A DNA stretch of 34,203 bases from a virus. Of the stretch, positions 27,730-32,351 are shown in pieces. Position 1 is the first letter of the stretch. Each line of letters opens with the position of its first letter. Location of the stretch: IMG/VR virus record IMGVR_UViG_3300050821_014392, positions 1-34,203 of that record; one strand, 5' to 3'. The position numbers were made by a program, and so were the translations under genes. The notes under the pieces are model-generated. The model saw only the letters and a list, made by a program, of their open reading frames with translations. It ran no database searches and was not told the DNA's origin.

Positions 27730-28377
27730 ATGATTTACGAAAAATGTACAAAATGTTTCAAAAAAATGATCGAAACTGGGTCTTCTTACAACAAAAGGAT
27801 AAAGGATATTTTTAATCCGCTTCCTTTCGTGTGTCATGAATGTTTAAGAATAATTAGATTATTCAATCCTAACGAAAAAGATCTAAAAAACAAGAGAAAA
27901 TATCTAAAAATAATAGAACATAAAAATGATTTAAGAAAAGAAGTTAGAACATTTAATAAAAATAAAATAATCCAAGAACAAAAAGAAAAAAAAAGGATTG
28001 ACAATTCTATATACACACGACCTTATACAGCCCAATCACGAGCCAAAAGAAAAAAGGCATCCATTGAATTGGATCAAAATGAAAAGAAAATTATCAGAGA
28101 ACTATATAGAAAATGTCCTCCGGGTTATGATGTAGATCATATAATTCCTATTTCTAAGGGAGGAAAACATTGTGTTGGTAATCTTCAATATCTTCCCTCA
28201 TCAGAAAATCGAAGAAAATCCTCAAAAATACTCATAGACATTCTTGAACAATATTCGGATCATGGAAAATTGTCTGTTTCTTTTTTACAAAGAAAATTTA
28301 AGATGAATGCAGAAGATGCTATAAATATTTTAAAAGAGATCGGTGTTTTAGAACATAATACAAATTATCAGACGTAA
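27730..28377 (+). CDS. HNH endonuclease with zinc finger and FtsK-gamma-like winged helix
   Basis: 215 residues. The N-terminus has a four-cysteine finger (C6-x2-C9 ... C35-x2-C38). Residues 40-110 are a basic helix. Residues 128-166 are the HNH core: CPPGYDVDHIIPISKGGKHCVGNLQYL with DHIIP, GG and N at 151, then SSENRRKSSK. Residues 167-208 (LIDILEQYSDHGKLSVSFLQRKF, NAEDAINILKEIGVLE) follow the FtsK-gamma winged-helix pattern, the domain that reads orienting DNA sequences in FtsK. A nuclease joined to that reader is unusual. Its ribosome site is weak, and it could be a mobile or DNA-processing enzyme. Confidence 0.7.
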   Translation: MIYEKCTKCFKKMIETGSSYNKRIKDIFNPLPFVCHECLRIIRLFNPNEKDLKNKRKYLKIIEHKNDLRKEVRTFNKNKIIQEQKEKKRIDNSIYTRPYTAQSRAKRKKASIELDQNEKKIIRELYRKCPPGYDVDHIIPISKGGKHCVGNLQYLPSSENRRKSSKILIDILEQYSDHGKLSVSFLQRKFKMNAEDAINILKEIGVLEHNTNYQT

Positions 28378-30656: not shown

Positions 30657-32351
30657 ATGACGATTACCACAACAAACGCCCTTCCAGCTCCTGTTCAGCA
30701 ATGGTTTGATAACGTGCTTTTAAGCCGTCCCATGCCTAAGTTGATCCACAAGCAGATGGCGCTAAAAAAAGAGCTTCCGCCTAATTCAGGGCGTATCGCT
30801 CGCTATCGTAGATATACGAACTTAGCCACAGCTACCGTTCCTCTTCCAGATTCTGGCTTAACGCCTCCTGGACAGGTTCTAAATGCTGTTGATATTGATG
30901 CAAGATTAGATTGGTATGGCACCTATGTGACGATCACCGATCAGGTCATGTTTATCAATCAGGACCCTAAAATGTATGGGGTCTTTAAACCCGCTCTAAT
31001 TGACTTGGAACTCCTCGCCGCTTAAGGGAGGAAGACAAGGCGCAAGGGCAATAGAATGTTTTAAATGGTGACCATGAAAACGAGTGTTCAAAGTCCTAAG
31101 ATCAGTCATGAGAGAATAGCGAAGAGCTTTAGTTTCTTGGCTAACAAAAACCTTTCCCCGAACTCGTGGAAAAGTCTCTCTCATTTTGATCATGATTTCA
31201 GCATGTCGTTTTTTAACTTTGAGATGGGGCAAAAGCTCTTTTGTGAGATCTGTAAGAGAATTACCGGAAAATTCAAGGCTGTATGTCACGACTTCATTTT
31301 GTCTAAGCTTTTGTTTTTTGGTCCTCTTATCAATAGAACCACCAAAACGCTCTTGAATCCACTCAAGGACCTCATAGTTGTTATTGCTAATCTTCAAAAG
31401 AGTGTGATAGTTGAAGTTGAAATTGCCCGTGCAAGCCGACTTGGTTTTGAACAGGCCGATGAAAAAACATCCTTCACCATCAATGAAGCCAGCAAGATAG
31501 CAAAGGTCATCGCGATTATACATAATGTCTTCTTTTGTTTAAGACTACATTATTTTAAACCAAAACACGAATATTGTCCAGCGTGAACGACTAAATGAGT
31601 AGGACCCGAAAGGGTATGCGATAGTCTGACCTCTACGTATAAATGAAGGTAGAGAGGCTGATTCGAAGAGGTCGGCCCGCCCAGGTAACTGGGTCACAAA
31701 AGTAACAGAATGGTACTAAATCAAACCGTTTCCCTCTTGGCTCAGTCAATGAGAGAGACAGAAGATGAATTGATTAGAAATATGTTGGCATCGACAGCCT
31801 CCGTAATTAACTGTACGGGCGGCGTAAATGGTGATAACCCAACAGAATTATCTCGAAGCGATATTGATGCTGTGATTTTAGCATTGCTAGGAAACGACGC
31901 AATGATGATCTCTGACAACATCGAAGGTACGTTGAAATTTGGTACTGCTCCAGTTAGAGAAGCATTTTGGGGCATGTTGAATACTGCAATCTTGGACGAC
32001 TTAGAGTCAGTTACTGGCTTTATTTCTCAAGCTCAGTATCCATCCAACATGAACGTGCTTAATGCTGAATGGGGTTCCATTTCGAATATTAGGTTCTTAT
32101 ATAGCTCAAGAGGCTCTATAACTCCTACTGCTTCGTTAAATGGAAATAATGTTTATAATATTTTTGTCACTGGTGAAGAAGCCTATGCTATTGTCGAACT
32201 GACAAGTGCCACAGCCTCCTTTATCTATACCCCTCCTGGTGGACCGACCGATCCACTTCGTAGGTTGCAGTTAGGCGCATATAAATTTGCTCAGGTGCCT
32301 CGTTTGTTGAATGACGCTTGGATCTTCAACCTACGTGCAACGCACTCATAA
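30657..32351 (+). CDS. Major capsid protein, N4-gp56 family, split by a group I intron
   Basis: Two exons, 30657-30968 (104 codons) and 31713-32351 (212 codons), join to 316 residues. The junction reads ITDQVMFINQDP|VLNQTVSLLAQ, in frame, restoring the continuous helix of the family. Other family features: LPAPVQQWFDNVLLSRPMPKLIHKQM at the front, RIARYRRYTNL, DARLDWYGTYVTITDQV, RETEDELIRNMLASTASVINCTGG and the C-terminal WGMLNTAIL and AYKFAQVPRLLNDAW. It forms the HK97-fold shell with the scaffold encoded just upstream. Unspliced, exon 1 would read on into the intron and stop after LELLAA, giving a truncated protein. An ATG at 31710 is the last intron codon and should not be used. Confidence 0.9.
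30969..31712 (+). ncRNA. Group I self-splicing intron in the major capsid gene
   Basis: 744 bases. P1 pairs exon GACCCT (30963-30968) with intron GGGGTC (30978-30983), leaving the required T-G pair at the splice site; the intron ends in G (31712). P4 is CTTG (31004-31007) with CAAG (31036-31039), and P5 CTCC/GGAG (31011-31014 with 31027-31030). P7 is GACTA (31589-31593) with TAGTC (31622-31626), and P8 is ACCC-GAAA-GGGT (31604-31615). P9 is CTCTAC/GTAGAG (31631-31636 with 31649-31654). P9.2 is CCCAG-GTAA-CTGGG (31680-31693), a GNRA loop. The 5' strand of P3 probably lies around 30990-30995. The endonuclease gene occupies the large internal loop, in antisense. Confidence 0.85.
30996..31523 (-). 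CDS. LAGLIDADG homing endonuclease, antisense to its intron
   Basis: 175 residues with one LAGLIDADG motif near the start (LCYLAGFIDGEGCFFIG, residues 7-23) whose last Gly-Glu acid (GEG) would bind catalytic metal. The rest (SIDKRTKKQKLRQNEVVTYSLEF, DLTKELLPHLKVKKRHAEIMIKM) has the family's strand-helix layout and basic DNA-contact loops. One motif implies a homodimer. AAGAAG lies 5 bases before the ATG at 31523, and an AT-rich promoter-like stretch is upstream. It is transcribed opposite to the capsid gene, and its last codons (CLPPLSGEEFQVN) lie antisense to P4-P5 of the ribozyme. Confidence 0.85.
   Translation of the reverse strand: MYNRDDLCYLAGFIDGEGCFFIGLFKTKSACTGNFNFNYHTLLKISNNNYEVLEWIQERFGGSIDKRTKKQKLRQNEVVTYSLEFSGNSLTDLTKELLPHLKVKKRHAEIMIKMRETFPRVRGKVFVSQETKALRYSLMTDLRTLNTRFHGHHLKHSIALAPCLPPLSGEEFQVN

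Follow-up and report, generated by a model that had tools for sequence, protein, structure and literature searches.

How is a phage major capsid protein made from a gene that is cut in two, with an endonuclease gene lying in the opposite direction between the two parts? The question is raised by the viral record IMGVR_UViG_3300050821_014392, analysed here over positions 1 to 34,203 (34,203 nucleotides (nt), hereafter the window), for which the original prediction had placed a group I intron, with splice sites defined to the base, in the capsid gene. By combining profile searches, splice-aware alignment, covariance modelling and comparison with related loci (designated by L and a number), we located a group I core in the insertion and a recurrent Ala-Ala-stop ending in the reading frame that enters it. 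We propose, as highly likely, that the intron is a mobile element whose antisense endonuclease is expressed from its own promoter, and whose Leu-Ala-Ala (LAA) tail marks the unspliced capsid product for degradation.

Both exons of the major capsid gene match adjoining parts of the PHROG head-protein profile phrog_1357 (coordinates in Table 1). With exon 2 as the query we retrieved 64 loci, the majority of which harbor an uninterrupted capsid gene, so that the 744 bases between the window exons represent an insertion. Such intron-free genes, which the original prediction had suggested searching for, were found in many close relatives, such as L005, whose protein is 93.7% identical to the spliced window protein, end to end over all 316 residues; the intron-encoded residues, whose presence in homologous capsid proteins would have spoken against an intron, are missing from these uninterrupted homologues. 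A splice-aware alignment, which allowed any phase and required only a T before the insertion and a G as its last base, yielded exactly 30968/30969 and 31712/31713 as the junctions, and joining the exons there restores INQDP followed by VLNQ in frame, as claimed. An intein was rejected because of the in-frame stop codon at 31023.

Which type of intron is it? A search of the window intron with the Rfam group I models, the test initially suggested, gave no match at the gathering threshold or at E≤1, and Rfam was equally silent on the related introns, two results that speak against a group I assignment. In view of this silence, we built a covariance model of the intron family (R1) from an alignment (A1) of 32 cores of short, endonuclease-free related introns. 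First, RNAalifold run on A1 predicted the paired regions P3, P4, P5, P6 and P8, with double changes in 17 of the 23 pairs. Second, once the P7 pseudoknot and its bulge are included, 96.1% of the cells of the A1 core are paired (76.9% in shuffles), and its covariation score is 0.532, versus 0.169 in shuffles (0/500) and at most 0.127 with slid partners; at the first P7 pair, A-U, G-C, U-A and C-G all occur. Third, R1 matches the plus strand of the window twice, in the 5' half (30987-31040, E 6e-6) and in the 3' half (31575-31629, E 1.3e-6) of a core that extends from P3 to P8 with a P3/P7 pseudoknot, and that accommodates the endonuclease gene between its halves, in loop L6. A group I core is thus present in the insertion; this intron family evidently falls outside the Rfam group I model, though the structure itself is there.

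The pairings at the splice sites were also borne out. The P1 helix forms between GACCCU and GGGGUC with the terminal U.G pair, and the intron ends in G. The P10 helix forms as well, between GUAC of the 3' exon and the guide GUAU that directly precedes the P1 strand, and is enriched across the family (mean 3.22 base pairs versus 1.07 in shuffles, the maximum of 2000 shuffles being 1.34). A group II intron was rejected, as Rfam was silent and P1, P10 and the terminal G fit group I. Judging from these features, the window capsid gene is interrupted by a group I intron at the very bases predicted, and we infer that it is spliced there.

What happens to a capsid message that is translated before splicing? 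In the window, the unspliced reading continues from the exonic DP into KMYGVFKPALIDLELLAA, i.e. 19 intron codons in the exon frame, up to the stop codon at 31023-31025, and the truncated capsid product would bear the C-terminal (L)AA typical of an ssrA-like degron. An LAA-type ending was found, at differing sites, in nearly every interrupted relative first examined. In a set of 150 non-identical full introns, occupying 56 site/phase positions across one capsid gene, 73 have an exon frame that ends in Ala-Ala-stop and 23 further ones a frame with a single Ala at its end, as compared with 1/150 and 0/150 Ala-Ala endings in the other two frames; shuffled intron starts gave 0.2% Ala-Ala and 4.3% single Ala. 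All three insertion phases are represented, and the spacing between splice site and P3/P4 motif offsets the phase (84/92 in phase 0, 4/5 in phase 1 and 16/20 in phase 2), thereby keeping the tail in the exon frame. There are 37 different Ala-Ala endings among the related introns, and the common LLAA form uses the Ala codons GCT, GCA, GCC and GCG and the stops TAA, TAG and TGA. The first insert of a gene is also more likely than later ones to have a tail (59/92 versus 25/73, p 1.6e-4), a bias that holds outside the L055 lineage (54/68 in the first insert versus 23/41 in later ones, p 0.016). Together, these data point to selection acting on the peptide end of the unspliced product, in favor of an in-frame Ala-Ala-stop.

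The open reading frame (ORF) on the minus strand of the intron encodes, as predicted, a homing endonuclease: it matches Pfam LAGLIDADG_1 (PF00961, 2.1e-10) and phrog_5046 (1.3e-20), carries one LAGLIDADG motif, and resembles in the PDB I-MsoI (2.6e-11) and I-CreI through a single LAGLIDADG domain at residues 2-122. The antisense placement, which had been held exceptional for phages, turned out to be the norm in this intron family, since introns of at least 430 nt in related capsid genes hold 31 antisense and three sense LAGLIDADG genes. The companion proposal, that this placement separates endonuclease expression from capsid transcription, is supported by a putative sigma-70-like promoter on the minus strand just upstream of the endonuclease ATG. 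Promoter-like sites accompany 30/31 antisense endonuclease genes (mean 8.9/12 matches versus 6.8 in shuffles); the spacer is 17 nt long in most of them, and a Shine-Dalgarno-like AGGAG often precedes the ATG. A terminator-like minus-strand hairpin (window 30979-30992) overlies the P1 guide, where the endonuclease transcript could end, about one such match being expected by chance. In L132, L168, L181 and L187, introns of 1057-1177 nt contain antisense frames of about 280-320 amino acids, possibly two-domain LAGLIDADG proteins.

A second type of insert was noticed in relatives of the window, which itself has none. Fifteen related capsid genes carry 29-59-nt inserts at codons 81, 86, 88, 91 or 104, which have no room for a catalytic core. 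Each of them displays a P1 of at least five pairs including the U.G, and a terminal G; a P10 of at least four contiguous pairs is found in 15/15 (mean 4.73, versus 1.85 with shuffled exons). Where the Thr codon after site 88 varies in its third base (U, C, A or G), the guide base reads A, G, U or C. The shortest insert, in L080, reads TACGGT, ATAAGTGCCGTAATAGTTTACTGCTAAAG, ACTTAT (5' exon, insert, 3' exon), and its 12-nt guide matches both exon ends. Every one of these inserts is followed, 26-91 nt downstream, by a full group I intron (14 by computation; L091, whose downstream intron ends at the contig end, by eye), while only 27/195 full introns have another full intron that near downstream, and the inserts are absent from 47 and 70 intron-free capsid genes (two partly overlapping sets). 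A Fisher test of this association is indicative only, as it used 16 genes instead of 15 and a gene set partly chosen for introns. In 11/15, the exon frame reads through to Ala-Ala-stop, and in L006, L007 and L048 the neighboring site-104 intron has no tail and the upstream insert has one. A pattern search for further site-88 inserts returned only those already known (L192, identical to L048, and L196, identical to L006), the other 11 matches being unrelated coding sequence. The small inserts of L154, L078, L142, L242 and L081 were discarded on account of poor P1 or P10, as indels, truncations or partial introns; dropping L154 reduced the 16 mini-bearing genes to 15.

Could these inserts instead be bypassed by the ribosome, as is the gap of T4 gene 60? 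They are short and have an in-frame stop and a hairpin, but their take-off and landing codons differ (GGT versus TTG, ATG or AAG), and the U.G-terminated P1, the P10 with the 3' exon, the terminal G and the full intron downstream all fit group I, so that we regard bypass as unlikely. We propose instead that the inserts are probably core-less group I mini-introns, and that excision by the core of the neighboring intron would be the most economical account of their anatomy and association. The complete proposal, i.e. substrate-only introns of 29-59 nt excised by a downstream core, with full and mini-introns both encoding an in-frame C-terminal degron, appears to us somewhat better than evenly balanced.

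The strand opposite the endonuclease gene is also peculiar, in that an open sense frame, codon-aligned with the endonuclease, exists in 30/31 antisense introns. The antisense endonuclease genes shun TTA, CTA and TCA, the complements of stop codons, which leaves the sense strand open in that frame; for Leu, TTA plus CTA amount to 42/574 codons in these genes, as against 29/49 where the endonuclease is sense (three relatives) and 189/392 in the window genes. That this frame encodes a second protein, as its openness and the strong codon avoidance might suggest, is quite improbable: the most variable position of the sense codons is the first one, i.e. the third position of the endonuclease codons, the register relative to the exon varies, and the sense frame has no Pfam or PHROG match. 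Since its third positions change most, the endonuclease is the constrained strand, and the sense-frame protein itself is not conserved. The frame is perhaps kept open by stop avoidance on the capsid transcript, which may hold ribosomes on it and Rho off it.

Table 1. Features of the interrupted capsid gene (window positions), followed by the candidate mini-introns of related loci (positions in the respective locus; sites are capsid codons).
Feature	Position	Strand	Evidence or remark
Capsid exon 1 (codons 1-104)	30657..30968	+	phrog_1357 columns 22-135; splice-aware alignment to uninterrupted L005
P1 5' strand GACCCT, terminal U.G pair at 5' splice site	30963..30968	+	sequence
Group I intron, 744 nt, phase 0, terminal G	30969..31712	+	
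Internal guide GTAT-GGGGTC (P10 strand 30974-30977, P1 strand 30978-30983)	30974..30983	+	sequence
P3 5' strand	30990..30996	+	alignment A1, model R1
LAGLIDADG homing endonuclease gene, 175 amino acids, in loop L6	30996..31523	-	PF00961, phrog_5046, I-MsoI/I-CreI
End of unspliced exon-1 frame, D-L-E-L-L-A-A-stop, proposed ssrA-like degron	31002..31025	+	Ala codons 31017-31022, TAA 31023-31025
P4-P5-P4' and P6 5' strand	31004..31047	+	R1 match 30987-31098
Stop-free sense frame, codon-aligned with antisense endonuclease, 173 amino acids	31065..31586	+	
Putative sigma-70-like promoter TGGACA-17-TAAAAT for endonuclease, -35 box inside P6'	31552..31580	-	10/12 matches
P6 3' strand	31578..31585	+	model R1
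P7 5' strand, bulged C31588, pairs with 31622-31627	31587..31593	+	
P3 3' strand	31597..31603	+	
P8 hairpin CCC-GAAA-GGG	31605..31614	+	model R1
P7 3' strand	31622..31627	+	
Capsid exon 2	31713..32351	+	phrog_1357 columns 132-341 (scanned from 31710); splice-aware alignment
Mini-intron, L006	2431-2488		
Mini-intron, L007	1129-1184		
Mini-intron, L048	487-545		
Mini-intron, L091	about 978-936	-	
Mini-intron, L080		-	site 88
Mini-intron, L187		-	site 104
Mini-introns, L216 and L229			site 81
Mini-introns, L108 and L220			site 86
Mini-introns, L102 and L130			site 91
Mini-introns, L074, L132 and L233			site 88

Is the Ala-Ala-stop a peptide signal or a by-product of RNA structure? If the L5 loop GCNGCNTAR were kept for folding or tertiary contacts, it would incidentally read LAA, and indeed LELLAA is the reading of 37 Ala-Ala tails, and in 42 introns the stop falls at one and the same offset within the P4-P5 region. 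However, the location of the tail is not confined to P4-P5: the tag also occurs, made from different letters, in the P1 loop (L051, L056, L002 and the mini-introns) and beyond P5 (L053, L073, L115 and L186). Moreover, the Ala and stop codons vary synonymously, the spacing tracks the insertion phase, and the other two frames almost never end in Ala-Ala-stop. We therefore disfavor the RNA by-product as very improbable, and retain an ssrA-like degron that would clear the truncated capsid protein as the simplest function of the tail. Several points weigh against this function or the counts behind it. First, 77 of the 150 tails have no Ala-Ala end (including the 23 with a single Ala), and the L055-like lineage mostly has other endings, e.g. 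VVAFS or AYGIC. Second, the one transfer-messenger RNA (tmRNA) tag that was read, in a metagenome-assembled genome (MAG) bin called Simkaniaceae that holds a relative, ends in QAAA. Third, the tail counts are not independent, because introns that share a site are related, and one of the search patterns for introns, with which some of the loci were gathered, could favor GC after the motif. As for the L055-like lineage (L083, L092, L107, L140, L152 and L168), its VVAFS, VVTFS, AYGIC, EAEA or similar endings are perhaps another host degradation signal. Finally, an unspliced gene, giving a split capsid or a defective phage, is hardly credible in spite of the silence of Rfam, for a covarying core and P1/P10 recur over about 150 introns at 56 positions and always restore one conserved capsid frame.

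From these data, we propose the following sequence of events. On the plus transcript, the intron RNA would fold into its group I core, excise itself and join codons 104 and 105, while the endonuclease, expressed from its own minus-strand promoter, could be produced whether or not late capsid transcription takes place, and would spread the intron. A ribosome entering the intron before splicing would stop after ELLAA, an ending that resembles the tmRNA/ssrA tag, and the truncated capsid would probably be removed by ClpXP or a similar protease, which would prevent it from poisoning capsid assembly.

How does this system compare with known ones? The phage group I introns of T4 td, SPO1 and Twort, with an endonuclease in a loop of the core, share with the window intron a group I core, a P1 with U.G, P10, a terminal G and an intron-borne homing endonuclease, whereas the antisense endonuclease, the unspliced exon frame ending in Ala-Ala-stop and the presence of as many as five full introns in the capsid gene of a relative differ. 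I-CreI and I-MsoI are homodimeric LAGLIDADG endonucleases from algal organelle rRNA introns; they have the single LAGLIDADG domain in common with the window protein, which is borne by a phage capsid intron and counts about 175 amino acids. Like the tmRNA tag, the tail would place a C-terminal Ala-Ala on a truncated product, but it is encoded in cis in the intron frame, with no need for tmRNA. Similarly to the group III introns of Euglena, which are streamlined group II introns, the proposed mini-introns are short, would have lost the core and would need one from elsewhere, but they use the P1/P10 and terminal G of group I instead of group II chemistry. Nuclear ribosomal DNA (rDNA) group I introns carry sense or antisense His-Cys endonuclease genes (PMC9548176); the antisense placement is shared, theirs being in eukaryotic rDNA and of the His-Cys type, and here LAGLIDADG in a phage protein gene. 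In huge gut phages, many group I introns (mean about 206 nt) occur in essential genes, RNA reads verify splicing for 37/76 and most endonuclease genes are stand-alone, the parts of that report consulted mentioning neither a tail nor mini-introns (PMC12363816). The open-access literature searched describes neither an intron-encoded degron nor a core-less group I intron.

If true, an intron-encoded degron would account for the persistence of introns in a structural gene that is highly expressed and whose translation begins ahead of splicing: the cost of a splicing failure would be borne by the intron itself. If the core-less mini-introns are what we propose, group I catalysis can act in nature on a separate, guide-bearing intron; such an intermediate has long been postulated for the emergence of split catalytic systems, and the arrangement would parallel, with group I chemistry, both the group III introns and the step towards a spliceosome. 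Antisense endonucleases with their own promoters would illustrate how a homing gene uncouples from its host gene in phages.

Among the relatives, L205, L154, L254, L173, L080 and L074 have three to five full group I introns per capsid gene. The MAG bins that contain the capsid genes are labelled Simkaniaceae, Parachlamydiaceae, Syntrophaceae, Saccharibacteria and Thermotoga; the first two (L267 and L270) may point to chlamydial hosts, with which the three other bins disagree. Elsewhere in the window, two plus-strand ORFs (371-1003 and 27730-28377) beside structural genes look, by eye only, like HNH endonucleases.
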